Shown: positions 20,108 through 30,163 of the stretch, piece after piece
Layout: the number at the start of each line of letters is the position of its first letter
Numbering within the stretch: position 1 is the first letter of the stretch
DNA from: Microbacteriaceae bacterium
GTDB lineage: Bacteria > Actinomycetota > Actinomycetes > Actinomycetales > Microbacteriaceae
Assembly (NCBI GenBank): GCA_024639845.1
Contig: JAHEGG010000007.1
Span: 1-55,171, forward strand
Direction of reading: 5' to 3'
DNA: 55,171 nt
Translations under genes and position numbers: made by a program
Notes under the pieces: model-generated
Databases searched by the model: none
What the model saw: the letters and a program-made list of their open reading frames with translations, nothing else
Told to the model about the DNA's origin: nothing

Positions 20108-20809
20108 ATGGCAAAGCGCAGCAAGGCTTATGAAGCCGCAGCAGCAAAGATTCAGCCTGGAAAGTTTTACACTCCAGCTGAAGCAGTAACCCTGGTCAAA
20201 GAGACCGTCACCAGCAAGTTTGACTCGACCGTCGAGGTCGCTTTCAAGCTCGGTGTTGACCCTCGCAAGGCCGACCAGATGATCCGTGGAACCGTTTCGC
20301 TTCCAAACGGAACCGGTAAGACCGCCCGCGTAATCGTGTTTGCTACAGGTGCCGCAGCAGACGCAGCCCGCGCGGCTGGTGCCGACGAGGTCGGCGGCGA
20401 CGAGCTCATCGAGAAGGTTGCCGGCGGATGGGTCGACTTCGACTCTGCCGTTTCGACCCCAGAACTCATGGGTAAGGTCGGTCGTCTCGGTAAGGTTCTT
20501 GGTCCTCGCAACCTGATGCCAAACCCTAAGACCGGAACAGTCACCCCAGACGTGGCCAAGGCCGTCACCGACATCAAGGGTGGAAAGATCGAGTTCCGCG
20601 TTGACAAGCAGGCTAACCTGCACTTCATCATCGGAAAGTCGTCGTTCTCGGCGAAGCAGCTAGGCGAGAACCTAGATGCCGCTCTCGAAGAGATCTTGCG
20701 TCTGAAGCCTTCGTCGTCGAAGGGCAAGTACCTGATCAAGGGTGCTGTCGCAACCACTTTCGGCCCTGGTATCCCACTAGACACCAGCGTCACCAAGGTC
20801 GAGTTCTAA
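20108..20809 (+). CDS. rplA: 50S ribosomal protein L1
   Basis: A 233-aa protein of normal length. The family signature [24 protein letters not shown] is in the central domain; the two-domain fold binds the L1 stalk of 23S rRNA and, in many bacteria, represses its own mRNA. AAAAGGAA precedes the ATG. A terminator ends the secE-nusG-rplK-rplA run here; rplJ-rplL are 18.8 kb further on. Confidence 0.97.
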
Positions 20810-20839
20810 AACTCAACCAACCAAACTCAACGTTGAGGG

Positions 20840-20868
20840 GATCGGGGCCATGCGCCCCGGTCCTTTCT
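20840..20868 (+). terminator. Terminator after rplA
   Basis: GATCGGGGC (20840-20848) pairs with GCCCCGGTC (20854-20862), loop CATGC, followed by the T-rich CTTTCTT. A 12-bp palindrome CTCAACGTTGAG lies just before it. Confidence 0.75.
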
Positions 20869-20979
20869 TCATCCTTCGGCTAACTATCGTTCAGCCGTGG
20901 GTGTTATAAAAGGATGCGGCCATCGGGCTGCACCACAAAGCAGTAAACGAGGCGAAAGCCATAAAAGTTAGGCGGGATA

Positions 20980-22434
20980 TTGTCACAGCACGCATTTGGC
21001 GCAGCTACTCTGCTTGATCCGAAGGACCCAATGGGATTGCGTTCCGACGCACCCCTGCTAGACGCGTGGATTCGTGACATGGAGACCGACCGGTCGCCAT
21101 TCCAGATTCCCGGACACAAGGGCCGCACCGACCTGACGGGTGCAATCGTTGATGGGGACATCCCAGTTTTGCCTGGCAATCACCCGCATCGAATCTCTCC
21201 AAGCCTGATTCTCGAAGCCGAAGCGCTCGCCGCCGATCTTTGGGGTGCCGACCTCTGCCGATTTGGTGTGAATGGTTCGAGTGGCTCCAATCATGCGGCA
21301 GTGATGGCGGTTGCCGGACCCGGCGACAAGGTGATCGTTAGCCGCACGCTTCACAAATCAGTGCTGGTCGGGCTGGTTTATGCCGGCGTTGTGCCGATTT
21401 GGGTTCGTCCTGAGATCAATCCCGAAACCGGCTTGCCCGAATACCTGCCTTCGACTCGTTTGGCTGAGACCCTCGCCGAACATCCGGATGCTAAAGCCGT
21501 CTTCATCGGTGAGCCTTCGTATGTCGGCACGATGTCGAACATTCCACGCCTGGCCGCGGTGGCTCACTCGCATGGAATCCCGTTGGTTGTCGATGCCGCC
21601 TGGGCCGCGCACTTCGGTTTTCATCCGGCGCTGCCAAATCACCCGCTGGCTGAGGGTGCCGATATTGTTGTGACTTCGGCTCACAAGACTTTGCCTAGCT
21701 ATTCGCAGGCTTCGTTCGTGCTGGTCCGCGGCGAGTATGTTGACTTGGCTCGGTTCAACAAGGTTTTCGATTCGACCCAGACCACTTCGATGTCAGGCCG
21801 AATTTTGGCTTCGATTGATGCGGCGCGTGCGCTGCTTGCTCGCCACGGTGAAGAACTCATTGACCCGATTATCGAGGCAACCGGTCGCGGGCGGGCTCGT
21901 TTGCGCGAGGCTGGCATTGGCGTGATTGATGGCCAATACATCGACCCGCTCAAGATGGTGATTCTGCTTTCCACCGTTGGTGCCGACGGAAACCTGGTTG
22001 AGGCCGAGTTGTTGGCCGCGAACATCGACCTTGAGATGGCGAATCGCGATGTGATCATTCCGATGATTACTTTTGCCGACACCCCCGACCGCATCGATGA
22101 TTTGATCGATCGAATCATTCGAATCGTGGATGCTCATCGCGGTGAATTGCGTCCCATCAAGACTGCCGCGGCCTTCTCGATTGCGCCCGAGGTTGTCGTT
22201 ACTCCGCGTGAGGCGTTTTTCAGCGATTACGAGGTGGTTCCGTCTGACGAGGCCGTTGGGCGAGTCTCGGTTGAGATGATTTGCCCTTACCCTCCGGGGG
22301 TTCCGGTGCTTTCACCGGGGGAGCGCATTACTGAGGAGGCTCTGAACGCACTGTTCGAAGCGCGTGATGCTGGCACCCGCATCGCGTATGTTGCCGATCC
22401 GACGCTGGCGACGCTGAAGGTCATGCCTCTTTAG
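20980..22434 (+). CDS. Orn/Lys/Arg decarboxylase family PLP enzyme
   Basis: A protein of 484 aa from TTG 20980 (467 from ATG 21031). It shows the fold-type I PLP pattern of the arginine/lysine/ornithine decarboxylase family: IPGHKGRTD near the N-terminus, FGVNGSSGSNHAAVMAV, VVDAAWAAHFGFHP, and the PLP lysine in TSAHKTLPSYSQ (K236). The C-terminal part has EMICPYPPGVPVLSPGERI. It should decarboxylate a basic amino acid to a polyamine or diamine, substrate not determined. The start is uncertain: the TTG has GGCGGG before it, while the ATG lacks a clear ribosome site. Its stop codon overlaps the end of a tiny reverse ORF. Confidence 0.88.
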   Translation: MSQHAFGAATLLDPKDPMGLRSDAPLLDAWIRDMETDRSPFQIPGHKGRTDLTGAIVDGDIPVLPGNHPHRISPSLILEAEALAADLWGADLCRFGVNGSSGSNHAAVMAVAGPGDKVIVSRTLHKSVLVGLVYAGVVPIWVRPEINPETGLPEYLPSTRLAETLAEHPDAKAVFIGEPSYVGTMSNIPRLAAVAHSHGIPLVVDAAWAAHFGFHPALPNHPLAEGADIVVTSAHKTLPSYSQASFVLVRGEYVDLARFNKVFDSTQTTSMSGRILASIDAARALLARHGEELIDPIIEATGRGRARLREAGIGVIDGQYIDPLKMVILLSTVGADGNLVEAELLAANIDLEMANRDVIIPMITFADTPDRIDDLIDRIIRIVDAHRGELRPIKTAAAFSIAPEVVVTPREAFFSDYEVVPSDEAVGRVSVEMICPYPPGVPVLSPGERITEEALNALFEARDAGTRIAYVADPTLATLKVMPL

Positions 22435-22481
22435 ATGTAGGCGTTGCCTCGATAGTCGATTCGCAGGGTTAACTTGGCCAT
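22431..22481 (-). CDS. Tiny ORF (16 codons) with strong ribosome site and palindromic operator
   Basis: Encodes MAKLTLRIDYRGNAYI. AGGAGA stands about 6 nt before the ATG, and an 18-bp perfect palindrome (22492-22509) lies directly upstream. The stop codon TAA overlaps the stop of the decarboxylase gene on the other strand. The start resembles the beta-strand of ribbon-helix-helix proteins, so it could be the stump of an antitoxin-like gene, but the match is too short to prove it. It could also be a chance ORF. Confidence 0.3.
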   Translation of the reverse strand: MAKLTLRIDYRGNAYI

Positions 22482-22491
22482 AATCTTCTCC

Positions 22492-22509
22492 TGTATTACA
22501 TGTAATACA
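22492..22509. promoter_or_regulatory. 18-bp perfect palindrome (candidate operator)
   Basis: TGTATTACATGTAATACA reads the same on both strands. It lies immediately upstream of the ribosome site of the 16-codon ORF. The rest of the gap to 22673 contains two similar hairpin-forming units around CACGATTAAAC (22546-22567) and CACGATTTAAC (22582-22605), of unknown role. Confidence 0.6.
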
Positions 22510-22673
22510 CACAGGGTATGTCGAGTCTGTGCATAAGGCAAGAGTGCACACGATTAAACGGGTGTGCGTGATGGCAGGGCGAGCACGATTTAACTTGCGT
22601 GTGCTGGTTCGCGCGACTCACGAGACTCACGCTAGGTCAGCCTTCGCCGCCCGCGAATACGCCGGCTAAGCGG

Positions 22674-24107
22674 TTAGCCGAGTTCGCGCAACGTTTGGGC
22701 CAGGCGCGTTGCGTCATCGGTGCGACCGTCGAGCAAGTAGTTGAGCATCGCCTTGTTGGCCATGTTCTTTGCCTTGATCTTTTGGGCCTGCCCGAGCAGC
22801 AGCCAGTATTGCGCCTCTTCGGACTGCGCAAGGATTGCCGCGGTCACGAGGTTGGCGGGAGCATCCGAGATTGCCTTGATGTAGCCGTTGGCGATTTCGC
22901 TATTGCCTGCCTTGGCATAGTGCATGGCGATTTCACCGGCGGCCATCCAAAACTCAACGCGACCCATGTTTAGTGGGTTGGATGCGATGAGTTCGTATTG
23001 GTGGATTTTGTCGGCGTGACGCTCCATGATCTCGAAGCAGATTGCCAGGAAAGTGGTCGCTTCGAAGTAGTAGTCGTCAAAGTCGTGCTCTTCGGCCAGG
23101 GCGATTGCCTCGACTAGCAGTTGCTCGGCTTCGAGTAGTTCGCCGATCACGAGCAGGTTGTGGCCTTGCATGCGAATGGCGTCACAGGCTTCGAAGTGCA
23201 ACTTGTGCGACTTGAGAACGGGAATCAGCACGTTCAGCAGGTTGGCGGCATCGCGACGACGCTCGAGCCCGACGAGTGCGCGAGCAAACTCGAGGTCGGT
23301 GCGAGCGCGGTGCTTTTGACGCTTGCGGTTGGTGCTTCGCGCCTTCATTTCTTCGAGAATCTTGAGCGCTTCGGCGAAACGACCGAGCTTGTTGAGGCAG
23401 CGGGCCATCAAGAACTGGGCGCGATCAACCTCGCGAGTGTTTTCGTCATATTTGGCCAGGTTGTATGCCTCGGTGGCCTTCGCCAGTGATAGTTCGATGT
23501 TCGATTCGTCGAACAGAGTCGACGCGAGCTCGTTTTCAGCGCGTGGCACGTTGTTGTCGAATCCGTTTTGAATGAATGATTCCTGAGCCTCGGTCAGCAG
23601 CTTTTCGGCGTCGTCGAGGCGGCCGATCTTGCGGAGCATACGGGCATAATCGGCTTTGAGGTGCGGCAGAAAACGGTAGTCGGATTCTTTGGCAACCTCG
23701 ACCGCCTGGCGCAGATAGTCGGCGGCCTCTTCATAGCGCTTCATGCGACGGCACATCGAGCCGCAGGCGTTCAATCCGTCGATTTCACCCTTTGAGTTCA
23801 TCGCCTTGCGAGCGTGCTCGGTCATCTGCTTGTAGTAGTCGAGGGCCTCGTTGAAGTGCGAACGTTCAGACTCGACATAGCCCATCTGGTTGTATGTCCA
23901 CATCAGGCCGGAGTGGTCTTCTAGCTCGGTGCGCAGGTCGGCGACAGTCGCCAAATAGACCAGTGATTTCTCGGGGTTGCCCTCGAAAAAGGTTTTTTGG
24001 GCTAGGCGTTCGATCGCGTCGGCACGCACTTTTTTGTCGGGAGACGCGATGTCTTCGTTGATTTTTTCTTCATCAAAGGCATCGTTTTCTTCGTCGTAAT
24101 CGCTCAT
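22674..24107 (-). CDS. TPR-repeat protein
   Basis: A 477-aa soluble protein. After a short acidic start (SDYDEENDAFDEEKINEDI) it consists of helical tetratricopeptide units, for example YNQMGYVESERSHFNEALDYYKQ, ACGSMCRRMKRYEEAADYLRQAVEVA, and FLMARCLNKLGRFAEALKILEEM. TPRs mediate protein-protein contacts; no enzymatic domain is present and the partner is unknown. AAAGGAG precedes the ATG. The upstream region carries an element (24162-24178) that resembles the promoter elements of the next two transcripts to the right, so the three may be co-regulated. Confidence 0.85.
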   Translation of the reverse strand: MSDYDEENDAFDEEKINEDIASPDKKVRADAIERLAQKTFFEGNPEKSLVYLATVADLRTELEDHSGLMWTYNQMGYVESERSHFNEALDYYKQMTEHARKAMNSKGEIDGLNACGSMCRRMKRYEEAADYLRQAVEVAKESDYRFLPHLKADYARMLRKIGRLDDAEKLLTEAQESFIQNGFDNNVPRAENELASTLFDESNIELSLAKATEAYNLAKYDENTREVDRAQFLMARCLNKLGRFAEALKILEEMKARSTNRKRQKHRARTDLEFARALVGLERRRDAANLLNVLIPVLKSHKLHFEACDAIRMQGHNLLVIGELLEAEQLLVEAIALAEEHDFDDYYFEATTFLAICFEIMERHADKIHQYELIASNPLNMGRVEFWMAAGEIAMHYAKAGNSEIANGYIKAISDAPANLVTAAILAQSEEAQYWLLLGQAQKIKAKNMANKAMLNYLLDGRTDDATRLAQTLRELG

Positions 24108-24906: not shown

Positions 24907-24935
24907 GAATAAATGTCGGCACAAAGTTGTATAGT
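24907..24935 (+). promoter_or_regulatory. Promoter of the SAM-riboswitch transcript
   Basis: GAATAAATGTC (24907-24917), then 12 nt, then TATAGT (24930-24935). Transcription would start near 24942, just where the aptamer begins. Confidence 0.55.
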
Positions 24936-24940
24936 CATCT

Positions 24941-25076
24941 CAGCATCAAGAGCGGTCGCAAGACCCGGCAACCTACCCACTGGAAAGGTGCCCAAACGAT
25001 GTGGTCAGACGGCATCCGTCGATCTGGCAACCAGTGGGAGGCAGCTCCCGCGCAAATCTAGCAAGGGAGCATTTTC
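24941..25076 (+). ncRNA. SAM-IV (SAM-I/IV clan) riboswitch with a translational switch
   Basis: The SAM-clan core is present: AAGAG, then a GGTC-GCAA-GACC hairpin, CCGGCAACC (24965-24973) and AGGTGCC (24986-24992). P1 is GCATC (24943-24947) with GATGT (24998-25002); P3 is ACCT/AGGT; a P5-like hairpin GACGG-cat-CCGTC is at 25008-25020. The P3 loop CCCACTGG (24976-24983) is fully complementary to CCAGTGGG (25031-25038), the pseudoknot that distinguishes SAM-IV from SAM-I; GGCAA stands before its 3' strand as in known SAM-IV. Next, GCTCCC (25044-25049) can pair either with GGGAG (25036-25040), which overlaps the pseudoknot strand, or with the ribosome site GGGAGC (25065-25070). SAM binding should free GCTCCC to cover the ribosome site. 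Confidence 0.85.
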
Positions 25077-25844
25077 ATGCCTGACAACCGCAAACACCAC
25101 ACCATCAGCATCGCGTTCACGCACGATCTGGCCGCCAATGCCGACCGAAAGCCTCCTCAAGAGAGCGTCTTCGACTCTTATGCCAACCAGCACTACCGAC
25201 TAAAGCTCGACGGTCGCCTCTTTCAAATCGCGCCGATCGACCAACCAACGCAGTTGCCCGAAACCGACGAGCGACCCGTTGCCCCAGGCTACATCATCAG
25301 CGCTTGGAACCCCAACGGCGACCCGGCCTTGGAGAACGACAACGATGAAGCCAACGACCGACTCGAGCAAGACCTCGCCGGCTTCAGTTACACGCCGCTG
25401 GTCACGCTGGCCCGCAACTCCCGCTGGATCGAGCGCTCGTTTTTGGTGCACGGCATCAACCGCAAGAAGGCCGTCTCGCTGGCCCGCAAATATGGGCAGA
25501 AGGGGTTGGTGGCACTCACCGACCGCACGCTCGAGGTGATTTTGGTCGATGAACCGACACCAGAGAACTCGAAGACGCTCAAAGTCATCGAACTACCGGC
25601 CGCACCTTGCCCGCTAATGCTCGAGTTTGACGCCGAGAATGAGTGCCGACCATACGGCGGCCCGTGGACCAGTTCGTCGATTCACGCCGCGGCGATCTGG
25701 GGTTTTCAGAGCAAGCTGTTAGTAAACGCACTCGGATGCTCGGCCTGTCAGAAACCCGAACAGCCCTACCGTCAGCGAACCGGCGCTACCGCAATCAACC
25801 GTGCGGCTGTGCCAAGTCGCTTCGGTGGCTGGCAGTGGATGTAG
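25077..25844 (+). CDS. DUF3293 domain protein under SAM-riboswitch control
   Basis: A 255-aa soluble protein. Residues 71-150 fit DUF3293: GYIISAWNPNG, an acidic stretch with DEANDRLEQDL, ERSFLVHGI, and AVSLARKYGQKGLVALTD. The C-terminal third is not part of that domain and has cysteines at 178, 190, 221 and 224 (CSAC), which could bind a metal. Function unknown. The riboswitch ahead implies that the protein is made when S-adenosylmethionine is low, so a role in methionine, SAM or sulfur supply is a reasonable inference. GGGAGC is 7 nt before the ATG and is part of the switch. No partner gene follows in the same direction within 180 bp. Confidence 0.78.
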   Translation: MPDNRKHHTISIAFTHDLAANADRKPPQESVFDSYANQHYRLKLDGRLFQIAPIDQPTQLPETDERPVAPGYIISAWNPNGDPALENDNDEANDRLEQDLAGFSYTPLVTLARNSRWIERSFLVHGINRKKAVSLARKYGQKGLVALTDRTLEVILVDEPTPENSKTLKVIELPAAPCPLMLEFDAENECRPYGGPWTSSSIHAAAIWGFQSKLLVNALGCSACQKPEQPYRQRTGATAINRAAVPSRFGGWQWM

Positions 25845-26023: not shown

Positions 26024-26689
26024 ATGGAAATTAAAGTTCACTCGCATCGTCACGCACTTGAGCTCTTAGAGACTGTTCCCGAATACAAAGTCTTGTGGCG
26101 TGAAGTGCTACAGGCAATCGAGAGCGTTGACGATGAATCAGTCATTGCACATTTCAGGGCGAATTTCGAGGGTAAGGCTGTCAAAAGCATTTCCAGGTCG
26201 ATAAACACTTTGCTTGACACCGCACTCTCTGAGCTCGATTGGAAAAGTCAGAGCCAAATTTTTGCCGAATCTGAGTACGGGGACCACGCCTGGCGATTAG
26301 ATTTTGCCAAATCCTTTGACGTTTCTGGTGTTCAAGGAGTTGGCACAGCAGATAGCAAATCTGGAATATCAATCGAAGTTGCGTTTAACCACCAAGGGAA
26401 CATCTCTTGGAACCTCATTAAACCGGTAATCGCTTCTGAGATAAATCATGTGCCAAAAGCTATTCAAACTAGCTTGGGTATCGTAATTGCCGCAACGAGC
26501 GAACTCAAGGCTATGGGTGGGTTTGACTCTGCTGTCGGCACTTTCGAGAACTATGTCAGTAACCTGCTCCCTCTGAGAAATCTACTTACCGTTCCGATTG
26601 CCGTAGTCGGGTTGAAAGCGTTTGAGTCATTTAAGGTCGTGCATGAAAAAGCCGGGAGCCAAAATTTCGGGCGAATTGAACTAATTTAA
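26024..26689 (+). CDS. BglII-family type II restriction endonuclease
   Basis: A 221-aa protein. The central part RLDFAKSFDVSGVQ...SGISIEVAFNHQGNISWNLIKPVI (D93, E118) has the pattern of the BglII/BstYI nuclease family, where an Asp and a Glu in a strand pair bind the metal. It would cut unmodified DNA; the recognition site cannot be read from the sequence. AAGGGGAAAA precedes the ATG. The gene is AT-richer than the housekeeping genes and converges with a C5-cytosine methylase gene, overlapping its end by 4 nt. The two presumably form one restriction-modification system. Confidence 0.78.
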   Translation: MEIKVHSHRHALELLETVPEYKVLWREVLQAIESVDDESVIAHFRANFEGKAVKSISRSINTLLDTALSELDWKSQSQIFAESEYGDHAWRLDFAKSFDVSGVQGVGTADSKSGISIEVAFNHQGNISWNLIKPVIASEINHVPKAIQTSLGIVIAATSELKAMGGFDSAVGTFENYVSNLLPLRNLLTVPIAVVGLKAFESFKVVHEKAGSQNFGRIELI

Positions 26690-27957
26690 CTTCTAGAAAG
26701 CTCATGTGCCAGAATTTTACCTACCCGTTCTATAAGACCCACAACGAGGGCATTTCCCATAAAGAAAGCCCGTTTTATGTCCGATATTTGCTCGGCGTTT
26801 GCATCTAACTTCGTCCAGTTGTCGGGGAAACCATTGAGTCGCTCAAGCTCCAGCGGTGTCAGCCGGCGGTACCCTTTTTCGGTCCTGATGACGTGTTTAA
26901 AGCGAGAAGGTGCTGCACCTCCTTCTCCGGTGATGATAGTCCTGGCAGGGTTTGTCAGAAGATCAGGGAATGCCATTTTCCCCTCTGAGTAGTTGAAACT
27001 GGCACCTGATTCCTTGTGAACGCGTTGAATAGTTTTTGCACCTTTCAAATATTCCCAATCAGAAATTCGACTCTCTGGAATCCAATAGCTCTCAGGGACC
27101 TCGGAATCAGGAATAACTATGTCGCCTAGCGTCATTTTTTTTGCAGCTTCAACCGTCTCTACACGTGCGGTGTAGGCCTTTCCGTTGAAATAAGTCCCTG
27201 CGTTCAGAAATGGCGAAATCTTAAGGCCCTTTCCGAAGTTGAGAGATAGGTCTTCAGGAGGAGAAGAGAGATCGATTTCGGTCACGCGAGCTCCAGGAAG
27301 CACAGGAAACGCTCTGGCTAGGACCCCGGATTTACAAATCACTGAACCTGGGGAAAAGTTAGTATCTCTGTCCAGCGTGTCAACTCTTCGTCCGATAATG
27401 AACACTCGAATTCGTCTTTGAGGGAAACCAATTTCAGCCGCGTTAATCACTCGCCATTCGACGAGATAGCCAAGATCACCTAATGTCTTCAACATAATTG
27501 CGAAATCTCTACCTCGCTGGCTGGACGGCGACTTGAGAAGACGGTCGACATTTTCAAGAAAAACAAATTTAGGTTTTTTTATCTCAACGATTGATCGGAT
27601 TTCCCACCAAAGTACCCCCTTTTTACCTTCTAAACCCTTCGAAGAATTCAGGCTTTTGGCAACCGAGTAGTCCTGACAGGGAAATCCCCCCACAAGCAGG
27701 TCAGCTTCTGGTAACGCGTTTTCGTCAACCTTAAGTCTGCTAACGATTTCTGCGATGTCCTCGTTGGAATGCCCCTTCGGCCCGAACCTCGCAACATAAC
27801 AGGATGACGCAGGTTGAGCCTTAGTTGATGGTTCCCATTGGTTGGAAAACACGGTTGCAAAATTGGCTCGCGCAAGCCCGACCCTGAAACCACCGACACC
27901 TGCGAAGAGTTCGGCGACGGTTCCAACAGGGTTGCTTGGTTCTTCGAAATTTGCCAA
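26686..27957 (-). CDS. DNA (cytosine-5) methyltransferase
   Basis: A 423-aa protein with the C5-methylase motifs in order: I, AELFAGVGGFRVGL; IV, GGFPCQDYSVA with catalytic C94; VI, FLENVDRLL; VIII, PQRRIRVFIIG; IX-X, RRLTPLELERLNGFPDNW and FFMGNALVVGL. It should protect host DNA against the convergent BglII-family nuclease. The start is TTG 27957, 5 nt after the stop of the upstream DUF262 gene, so expression is probably coupled to it. The region between motifs VIII and IX is the target recognition domain. Confidence 0.93.
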   Translation of the reverse strand: MANFEEPSNPVGTVAELFAGVGGFRVGLARANFATVFSNQWEPSTKAQPASSCYVARFGPKGHSNEDIAEIVSRLKVDENALPEADLLVGGFPCQDYSVAKSLNSSKGLEGKKGVLWWEIRSIVEIKKPKFVFLENVDRLLKSPSSQRGRDFAIMLKTLGDLGYLVEWRVINAAEIGFPQRRIRVFIIGRRVDTLDRDTNFSPGSVICKSGVLARAFPVLPGARVTEIDLSSPPEDLSLNFGKGLKISPFLNAGTYFNGKAYTARVETVEAAKKMTLGDIVIPDSEVPESYWIPESRISDWEYLKGAKTIQRVHKESGASFNYSEGKMAFPDLLTNPARTIITGEGGAAPSRFKHVIRTEKGYRRLTPLELERLNGFPDNWTKLDANAEQISDIKRAFFMGNALVVGLIERVGKILAHELSRS

Positions 27958-27962
27958 AGCAA

Positions 27963-29807
27963 TTAGTCCTCGATAGATGGCATCTGGATGCCGAAGGTGT
28001 CACAAAGGTCCAAGGCAAGCAGAGTCCAATACAAATTTGCACGGCGTTTCACAGCTTCTGGTGACCAAGCGGCCACGGTCGCCGGGGACAGCTCCTTGAT
28101 GAGATCTGCTTGGGCAATCCTTTCTGCATCTCCTGCAAATTCGCCGATTTCTAAACCATTTAGCCATTTGGTTAGCAAAAGCCCAGATGCGGCAAAGTAG
28201 ACCTGTTTGTTTTCAGGGTCGTAAGCTCCTGCTAAACGGTTTAGTCGAGGGTTCAGTAAAGTGAGATTACCCAACCCGTGTACTACTTCGCTGGTCCAAG
28301 TAGGATCTTCGGTATCAGTGCCTTCAATTAGTGCCTGAGGGTGAATGTGCTCTAAATGGTATCCCTCATCGCTCTCGTCCTCAGGGTTTTTGCAAGCTCT
28401 CAGGTACTCACTTACAGCCAATGCTTCGGCGGCAGCCTTTTTCTGGACACGTCGGTTGATTCTGGCAAGCACGTACCGAATGCGGTTTTTTTCTGTTTCA
28501 TTGTCGTACGACCAACCAAGCATTTGAAATCGAATTGCACGGATTAGTGTTTCCATGCCTGAAATAGCTTCTGTAGAAGCGTCTCTCACGTCGGCGCGTG
28601 AGGCGTCGTGGGGTAAATCGCGGACTTTGTTTGCCCATGGCGCAATAATGCGCTCAAAAACTTGTGGCAACTCTTTGGATAGCAGTGAAACAACAGCTCT
28701 ATCTTCAACGATTCGCGCTAATTCTTGTTGCGCTTGCGCGTTTGTTAAGTGCGCTCCGGCTAGCAGAACTGGTAGGTGTTGTATCTGCCCAAAATACTTT
28801 GTCCCAACGAAATGTTCAGTTGCCTGACCAGACGCAGTGAGGCCTAAACCGAGGTTGGCAAGTTCTTTCGCACGTAGTGGAAGGCTTGTCCCGAAAGACT
28901 GAGCGTCTACCGTACCTTCATGAATCAGCTTTTCCCATCCTTTGAAGACTTTTTTATTCGAGAAAGACTCACCAACGCGAGCGGAAAGCATGGATTTCAT
29001 TAAGAAGTCCATCGATCCGACGCGGCCCTTGCATCGGAATAGCTCCTTGAGGGCTTCTTCCCAGGCGTTCGAGATGGATACGTATTCAGCCTCAGATACT
29101 CTTTGGAAAAGCAAGTTTTTTAGCAAATCAGCGGAGTTGAGCCTCAGTCCTCGGTTGTTCAGTTTTGCAAAAACATCGAGTGCCTGCGCTTGGTCCGGCA
29201 CACTCAGTCTGACTAAATAAACATCGTTTGAAATGCGGGTGAATAAGTGCAAAAGTTTTTCGTAGTTTCCATCATCAGTGACGAAACCATCGACAAAGTC
29301 CTCAAGTTGCTCAAAGGCTGACTTTATGTTTTTCTGAGTGTTGTTTATCGTACGGGCCGGGAGTTTCTTCCCAGTAACAAGTAAGTTGATTAGTTCGTCC
29401 CCGCCTGGGGCAACGGACAAACGGGGTCGAATGACACCTTGATTGCTGAACCAAGTCATGCTGTTGACCTGATGGATGTTTTGTTCGAGCACTCCAGGCA
29501 TCGCTGGCGAAACGTATGAATTAAGAGTTTTGCGAATCGCCAACAAGAGCAAAAACAGCGTCGTGGTTCTTTGCTGACCATCAACGAGGGACCATTGCTC
29601 AGCACCTTCATGGGGCGCGGCGATGACTTGCCCTAGCAGGTAATACGGGTCTTCATCATTCAGAAACTCCGTCAGGTCGGTTATAAGATCCTGAATTTGG
29701 TCACGTCCCCAAGCATATTCTCTTTGGTACACCGGAACGGCGTATGACTCTGCGAAGCCAAAGAACGCGCCGACTGACAATAGGTTTTCCTGTGGTGCTG
29801 TTGGCAT
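27963..29807 (-). CDS. GmrSD-type DUF262/DUF1524 protein
   Basis: A 614-aa protein with an N-terminal DUF262 domain: YQREYAW (27-33) and VDGQQRTTT (75-83), the nucleotide-binding/ParB-like signature. The C-terminal DUF1524 domain has HLEHIHPQ and LGNLTLLNPRLN, an HNH-like nuclease core. Fused GmrS-GmrD proteins are NTP-dependent nucleases that attack phage DNA with modified bases. Here it heads an operon with the C5-methylase, so it may be an accessory defence enzyme. ATG 29807 was chosen over an upstream start because GGAGACGAC precedes it and the preceding 53 residues look non-coding. Confidence 0.88.
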   Translation of the reverse strand: MPTAPQENLLSVGAFFGFAESYAVPVYQREYAWGRDQIQDLITDLTEFLNDEDPYYLLGQVIAAPHEGAEQWSLVDGQQRTTTLFLLLLAIRKTLNSYVSPAMPGVLEQNIHQVNSMTWFSNQGVIRPRLSVAPGGDELINLLVTGKKLPARTINNTQKNIKSAFEQLEDFVDGFVTDDGNYEKLLHLFTRISNDVYLVRLSVPDQAQALDVFAKLNNRGLRLNSADLLKNLLFQRVSEAEYVSISNAWEEALKELFRCKGRVGSMDFLMKSMLSARVGESFSNKKVFKGWEKLIHEGTVDAQSFGTSLPLRAKELANLGLGLTASGQATEHFVGTKYFGQIQHLPVLLAGAHLTNAQAQQELARIVEDRAVVSLLSKELPQVFERIIAPWANKVRDLPHDASRADVRDASTEAISGMETLIRAIRFQMLGWSYDNETEKNRIRYVLARINRRVQKKAAAEALAVSEYLRACKNPEDESDEGYHLEHIHPQALIEGTDTEDPTWTSEVVHGLGNLTLLNPRLNRLAGAYDPENKQVYFAASGLLLTKWLNGLEIGEFAGDAERIAQADLIKELSPATVAAWSPEAVKRRANLYWTLLALDLCDTFGIQMPSIED

Positions 29808-30163
29808 GTCGTCTCCATTAGAAAATCGCAAGTGTTGAAATCTTGTATTCCTTGATCTTACGGGATCCAACGGACATTTTTCTGGATCCACACCGGCACA
29901 GATTCCTAAATTGGGTTTCTCAACGCCAAATCCTCCGACGTCAGCACTCCCGATGCACGTTCCCACGTTCTTTGAGCGGAGGTGCCAGGAACGTGGAAAG
30001 AGTTTTGAAGTGAATTTTAGGATGTTTCCTTTAGCTCTTTGCCTTGGCGGCGCTACTCATGAAGTCTTTCGAGGAAGTTACCGCAGAAAGGGACACAAAC
30101 TCCAATGGTGGTAGGCATCAGCCCGATTGTCTCCGATAGTTGCATCTCAGCTAAGCTCCCAAT
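29808..30163. other. Divergent gap between the GmrSD-type gene and the 170-aa protein
   Basis: A 356-bp region between two divergently read genes. It should hold the promoter of the GmrSD-methylase operon, but I see no clear -35/-10 pair. A plus-strand open frame of 67 codons runs through it without a convincing ribosome site or family match. No repeats stand out. Confidence 0.4.
30152..30157 (+). promoter_or_regulatory. Leaderless -10 element of the 170-aa protein gene
   Basis: TAAGCT, 6 nt before ATG 30164. Confidence 0.5.

Follow-up and report, generated by a model that had tools for sequence, protein, structure and literature searches.

A SAM-I/IV riboswitch in front of a DUF3293 gene, a putative remote relative of phage SAM lyases, in a Microbacteriaceae bacterium

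The stretch of DNA analyzed here (the window) comprises 55,171 nucleotides of a contig from a Microbacteriaceae bacterium (GenBank assembly GCA_024639845.1, contig JAHEGG010000007.1), and all coordinates below refer to it unless another locus is named. It contains a SAM-I/IV riboswitch aptamer on the forward strand (24938-25044), which is followed on the same strand by a gene for a 255-residue protein of the DUF3293 family (25077-25844). A TPR-repeat gene lies upstream on the reverse strand (22674-24107); TPR genes adjoin DUF3293 or the riboswitch in some relatives, which is an association only. An Orn/Lys/Arg-type decarboxylase gene and a ribosomal protein L1-like gene were recognized by eye next to it (all within 20108-24107), and the same TPR/decarboxylase/L1-like site carries differing riboswitch cargo in related genomes (the window and loci L043, L048, L076 and L078). 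Downstream, a C5 DNA methyltransferase gene (PF00145, 206.6 bits) and a GmrSD-type gene were found within 26686-29966. Judged from its sequence, the region 26024-29966, which adjoins the riboswitch-controlled gene, is likely to be a restriction-modification cluster; one ORF in it (221 residues) weakly resembled BglII endonuclease, with a score below the cut-off. DNA methyltransferase genes, picked by eye, were also present near the riboswitch in genomes G650, G235, G095 and G157, and Mza-type genes in G210.

The earlier note on this DNA had described the element as a SAM-IV-type riboswitch and proposed a covariance search with the Rfam SAM-IV and SAM-I/IV models. In such a search, the SAM-I/IV model (RF01725) matched 24938-25044 with 53.3 bits, above its gathering cut-off of 41.1 (E-value 5.6e-6 over the whole window and 2.5e-8 over 241 nt), and this copy was the sole match at an E-value of at most 0.001 in its own genome. 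The SAM-IV model (RF00634), on the other hand, gave 36.1 bits and stayed under its cut-off of 38, and we therefore assigned the element to the SAM-I/IV class, keeping the riboswitch and changing its type. In the alignment, P2 appeared as one unbroken hairpin without PK-1, accompanied by a hairpin after P1 and by the P3-loop pseudoknot. According to PMC6890682, P2 is unbroken in the SAM-I/IV class and split with a PK-1 in the SAM-IV class; the variants that later became RF01725 came mostly from metagenome sequences, as described in PMC2864571. Our own covariance model R2, trained on 13 sequences with the window copy among them, scored 91 bits at 24940-25073, and the aptamer core positions were invariant across 17 related sequences. 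The identity of 24938-25044 as a riboswitch is thus near certain on sequence grounds, and binding of SAM is predicted.

Based on the RF01725 alignment and covariation, the 5' strand of the P1 helix (GCATC, 24943-24947) pairs with GATGT at 24998-25002, and a hairpin of the P4/P5 type follows at 25003-25028 (ends approximate). The pseudoknot proposed previously has both of its strands in place, CCCACTGG in the P3 loop (24976-24983) and CCAGTGGG at 25031-25038, and its pairing was tabulated for 18 riboswitches. All other strings named in the earlier note were likewise found where it had placed them, and the ATG lies at 25077 and the stop codon ends at 25844.

The reading frame was confirmed as a member of DUF3293, with a Pfam PF11697 score of 62.1 bits against a cut-off of 25 over residues 74-142 (25296-25502). 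AlphaFold predicted a good core at approximately residues 27-165 and a disordered C-terminal tail (residues 177-255), which was present only in the window protein and its ortholog among 27 aligned DUF3293 proteins; the suggestion that cysteines in this tail bind metal found no support. The window protein had no match in NCBIfam, PHROG, PADLOC or the PDB sequences, and no close relatives could be identified in phage, plasmid and viral-contig collections. In the literature searched, with most subscription journals outside its scope, we found no mention of DUF3293, nor of Microbacteriaceae together with a SAM riboswitch; SAM lyase and riboswitch are co-mentioned in some literature. Only one near relative possessing both the riboswitch and the gene was found (L005, CAIZQQ010000089.1, evidently the same as L045 of genome G650). 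Its 139-nt leader differs from that of the window at 5 positions (134/139 identical) and is more conserved than the gene, for which the aligned coding DNA is 82% and the protein 84% identical. A dN/dS of 0.14 between the two ORFs indicates purifying selection.

The expression platform consists of three strands that would compete for pairing. The anti-sequestor strand S1 (GGGAG, 25036-25040) has its GGG in common with the 3' strand of the pseudoknot, an overlap of three bases only. In the ON state the middle strand S2 (GCTCCC, 25044-25049) would pair with S1, and in the OFF state with S3, the ribosome site GGGAGC at 25065-25070. This site starts 12 nt 5' of the ATG and leaves a spacing of 7 nt between GGGAG and the start codon. 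The three strings were located in the window and compared with relatives, and their pairing was also examined by folding. Counting the window copy in, triples of at least 4 bp were observed in 16 of 18 riboswitches and of at least 5 bp in 12 of them, with letters that vary from one riboswitch to another (GGGAG/CTCCC/GGGAG, GGAGGC/GCCTCC/GGAGGC, GGGAGC/GCTCCT/AGGAGT and GGGGC/GCCCC/GGGGC). When the middle strands of five versions were swapped, 14 of the 20 pairings with the ribosome strand were broken, whereas the versions' own pairings all hold. The 5 bp of the window were matched in 69 of 2000 shuffles in which only the stretch between the strands was shuffled, a modest result alone; stronger sequence evidence for an alternation than this test comes from relatives, in which S1, S2 and S3 all change jointly. 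Weak 4-bp triples were common in shuffles (888/2000 for G232, 1421/2000 for G651 and 620/2000 for G157), and a stricter triple rule found none in G253, G095 and G067. The alternation claimed previously is borne out: its strands are in place, near-identical in one related species and co-varying in relatives.

Folding was analyzed in 15 leaders, a set that omits G095 and G067 (no triple by the main rule) and G157 (a self-complementary 4-mer only) and in which the strands of G232 and G651 were set by hand. At the stage when the ribosome site is yet to be transcribed, the S1:S2 (ON) hairpin had a probability of at least 0.94 in 13 of the 15. In the full leader, holding the pseudoknot raised S2:S3 pairing in nine, lowered it in one and left it the same in five (one-sided Wilcoxon p 0.013). 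With a simpler accessibility score for 18 leaders, accessibility was lower in 13 when the pseudoknot was held, yet no net change could be observed (Wilcoxon p 0.44). In the window leader at equilibrium, S2:S3 pairing was 1.00 with or without the pseudoknot, that is, the ribosome site was closed both ways, and the leader of the ortholog behaved likewise. Any switching in the window must therefore be decided during transcription, and its ON state must be kinetic. Thus, the ON/OFF logic read from the window earlier fits the relatives, through their triples and the effect of the pseudoknot, in whose absence the ribosome site opens in several of them, whereas equilibrium folding gives OFF for the window leader itself in either state. 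As a rule, switches of the SAM-I/IV type turn expression off, and our models suggest that the direction here is likely the same, with SAM shutting the gene. In G204, a terminator-like hairpin after the middle strand, read by eye, would also mean OFF with SAM; this riboswitch precedes an N-formylglutamate amidohydrolase gene (L081:6789-7971, minus strand).

Riboswitches could be identified in 24 of the 67 genomes of the genus: eight by RF01725, five more by RF00634 and 11 more, several of them weak, by R1, a model of a longer riboswitch variant trained on three of the genus genomes. A SAM-clan variant that carries an additional hairpin between P2 and P3 was found by pattern beside TPR genes (L076:8535-8695, L077:1020-1182 and L078:8471-8632, minus strand) and was unlisted when the genus was searched with RF01725 and RF00634. 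DUF3293 was present in eight of the 67 genomes, directly behind a riboswitch in four of them and in three architectures: the riboswitch followed by DUF3293 (window and G650), the same order with another orphan gene behind (G205), and DUF3293 fused behind an orphan domain, A (G235). Two of these four DUF3293 sequences are divergent and share only 19 and 18% of their residues with the window protein. G204 and G651 possess both riboswitch and DUF3293, apart from each other; no riboswitch was found in G223 and G248, and in G248 the DUF3293 gene comes directly after a TPR gene. Of 28 further DUF3293 loci sampled across the phylum, the family and the genus, some with flanks that end at contig ends, none had a riboswitch within approximately 1.5 kb, and an Rfam scan of 22 of them detected no SAM family. 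One of the 28, in another genus of the family (G112), has a riboswitch 2.4 kb upstream, just outside this distance, with riboswitch, TPR gene and DUF3293 on one strand and a 143-aa ORF that fits between. The earlier proposal to look for the same element before DUF3293 in relatives was thus answered positively for half of the genus genomes carrying the family and negatively, within the distance given, for the sampled loci elsewhere. DUF3293 occurred in 6 of the 24 riboswitch genomes of the genus vs 2 of the 43 others (Fisher p 0.021), and in a 199-genome sample of the family in 2 of 41 vs 1 of 158 (p 0.11), where 41 is a hand count that assumes our 398-genome set to include the 199. Among 14 control genomes, Deinobacterium chartae was the sole one matching RF01725 (below cut-off) and PF11697 (above cut-off).

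Across the family, R2 matched in 72 of 398 genomes and 29 of 85 genera, a survey that is neither unbiased nor complete because the model was trained on such loci and seven candidates were scored per genome. The 97 first ORFs behind riboswitches formed 23 clusters, the two largest of which (46 and 22 members) accounted for 68 of the 97 and contained mostly orphan proteins; a few ORFs were picked in the wrong frame, and G227 and G739, both situated where their contigs end, yielded no usable ORF. The 46-member cluster (L104, L105, L135 and others) comprises Trp-rich orphan proteins with a GFTPxxY-like motif; its scanned members had no Pfam family, and a model of one had no convincing PDB match. 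Representatives of the orphan groups A, E, H and I also lacked a Pfam family, and group B is cysteine-rich. For the H family (model pLDDT 80), PDB matches were unconvincing and Pfam matches stayed at noise level. At L002, L003, L004, L039, L040 and L041, SAM-IV or SAM-I/IV riboswitches precede genes for small orphan proteins that carry a PGHxxHW-like motif, and at L076 a PGHxxHW-like domain is fused to DUF3293. N-formylglutamate amidohydrolase genes stand behind two riboswitches (one by Pfam, one by clustering), and by eye two riboswitches precede MFS transporters and one precedes metK (G088b). Since one cargo gene is metK by this reading, a link between cargo and SAM does occur.

Comparisons of sequence and predicted structure suggested, with a likelihood of about two in three, that DUF3293 is remotely kin to the phage S-adenosylmethionine lyases (T3 gene 0.3). 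In a Foldseek search against viral models, the first match was another DUF3293 protein (E-value 9.5e-6) and only two rows reached an E-value of 0.001; several of the next rows came from T7/T3-type phages and are small proteins. A 142-residue protein of phage Spp16 took rank 5 and a protein named SAM hydrolase rank 6, both with probability 1.00 and a TM-score of 0.47-0.55 on target length. A tblastn search found a homologue of the T3 SAM lyase in phage Spp16 (33% identity), and the rank 5 protein is very probably this homologue, both having 142 aa. No SAM lyase was among the best 50 of 687 Foldseek matches in the PDB, though the T3 SAM lyase (7ock) is in that database; these 50 were mostly proteasome-like chains with TM-scores of about 0.2, which we took as noise. 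Profile comparison by hhalign of 27 DUF3293 proteins with eight SAM lyases gave a score of 25.2 (core 24.4), at an hhalign probability of only 9-14%. None of 400 column shuffles reached 24.4 (best 21.3), the reversed profile gave 11.5, and the orphan H and PGH families scored 14.6 and 15.3 against the SAM lyases, inside the shuffle range. The Pfam family S-AdoMet_lyase (PF23780) had no match to the window protein itself and was touched weakly by 5 of the 27 DUF3293 members (best E-value 0.034), being the only other Pfam family matched by more than one; as a control, it was matched by 0 of 22 orphan-family members, among which the most frequent chance families had 2 matches each. Similarly, phrog_2226, the PHROG of the T3 SAM lyase, was matched by 4 of the 27 and was the sole PHROG matched by more than one. 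No single E-value of these HMM matches was significant.

At the residue level, hhalign placed Glu119 (codon 25431-25433), invariant in the 27 DUF3293 proteins, opposite T3 Glu68, and the nearly invariant Gln141 (codon 25497-25499) opposite T3 Gln94; in a joint MAFFT alignment, Glu119 stood opposite T3 Glu59, not Glu68. In PMC7877911, Glu69 of the lyase Svi3-3, equivalent to T3 Glu68, is described as critical for activity and Gln104 as contacting the ligand. T3 Gln94 presumably corresponds to Svi3-3 Gln104, and T3 Gly55 to its conserved Gly56; this Gly is not kept in DUF3293, where hhalign put Thr110 opposite Gly55. We propose that DUF3293, since by hhalign it would keep the Glu and Gln of SAM lyases, may bind, and perhaps cleave, SAM or a close derivative. 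Two observations strengthen the earlier idea that the family is linked to SAM balance, namely the four genus genomes in which DUF3293 directly follows a riboswitch and this resemblance; DUF3293, an uncharacterized family, may work in SAM control.

Taken together, we give an about even chance to the reading that a SAM OFF-switch precedes DUF3293 and that a SAM-binding or SAM-cleaving relative of SAM lyases is made at low SAM. With SAM bound, the pseudoknot would be held and S1 occupied, so that S2 could mask the ribosome site and stop translation. Without SAM, the S1:S2 hairpin would form first during transcription and the gene would be translated. The protein, which may be a remote relative of the phage SAM lyases with their GlnB-like fold (a step with weaker support), would then be made only once SAM has fallen. 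It could act as an enzyme, or it could sense low SAM and report it, perhaps to neighboring TPR proteins. It should be noted that a SAM OFF-switch controlling a SAM-cleaving enzyme would be odd in physiological terms, which counts against the whole reading; an enzyme that cleaves SAM only when it is scarce would aggravate the shortage, and a role in sensing or in self-limiting defence would therefore suit better than a housekeeping one. Such an enzyme would make sense if the switch were reversed, with SAM turning the gene on, surplus SAM being destroyed, and the pseudoknot, which overlaps S1 by three bases only, leaving enough of S1 to occupy S2. However, holding the pseudoknot raised closure of the site in nine leaders and lowered it in one, the G204 hairpin was read as OFF, and switches of this type are generally OFF, so we regard a reversed direction as quite unlikely. 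Equilibrium folding of the window copy showed no switching, as might be expected of a decayed, functionless riboswitch, but a leader 134/139 identical to that of the relative and more conserved than its gene, with a core invariant over 17 sequences, makes decay very improbable.

A different account, possible but in our view doubtful, is that the riboswitch is a portable control module placed before many unrelated orphan genes, with DUF3293 as one cargo and its SAM-lyase resemblance coincidental or uninformative on its role. The distribution of the 97 first ORFs over 23 clusters, the single chromosomal site with differing cargo in related genomes and the weakness of the SAM-lyase scores one by one would all fit, whereas the fold, profile, HMM and residue signals indicate the same family, and metK as one cargo (G088b, by eye) provides a link with SAM. 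The neighborhood might instead point to defence-island cargo, made at low SAM, when it would either shield under-methylated DNA of the cell itself or halt a phage that has destroyed SAM. DNA methyltransferases need SAM, and they are found both beside the window gene, with the GmrSD-type gene, and near the riboswitch in the other genomes mentioned above, together with the Mza-type genes. Against this, these neighbors were chosen by eye without a background rate, islands gather unrelated genes, and PADLOC had no match for the DUF3293 protein; such a role appears unlikely.

Returning to the reading of a SAM OFF-switch before a SAM-lyase relative, a broader and speculative picture, to which we assign only a small probability, can be drawn. 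A chromosomal SAM-lyase relative might be silenced by the riboswitch and released when SAM falls, through phage destruction or methylation demand. Next to SAM-dependent restriction systems, it might serve as a guard or self-limiting module that acts on, or reports, whatever SAM is left, and it would belong to a larger, unrecognized set of SAM-riboswitch orphan cassettes in the family. In any case, RNA control and remote homology provide the DUF3293 family with a testable hypothesis, SAM binding or cleavage, and the survey exposed a set of SAM-clan riboswitches of which many targets are orphan proteins. If the reading is true, SAM lyases would extend beyond phage counter-defence, with cellular relatives under SAM feedback.

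Compared with known systems, the window copy resembles the SAM-I/IV class (RF01725) in its aptamer core, unbroken P2, P3-loop pseudoknot, hairpin after P1 and score above the cut-off, and differs in that it controls a DUF3293 gene. With the SAM-IV class (RF00634), relatives of which occur in the same genus and family, it has the core and the pseudoknot in common, whereas its score is below the cut-off and a split P2 with PK-1 is lacking. The protein matches the DUF3293 (PF11697) family clearly, but carries an N-terminal extension and a 79-residue C-terminal tail, and the members sampled elsewhere have no nearby riboswitch. Finally, a possible likeness to the phage SAM lyases (PF23780; T3 gene 0.3 and Svi3-3) lies in the predicted fold against viral models, in weak HMM matches and in the Asn, Glu and Gln positions of the hhalign alignment; in contrast with these lyases, DUF3293 is without the conserved Gly, has a shorter hairpin before the Glu and is encoded by a chromosomal gene under a SAM riboswitch.
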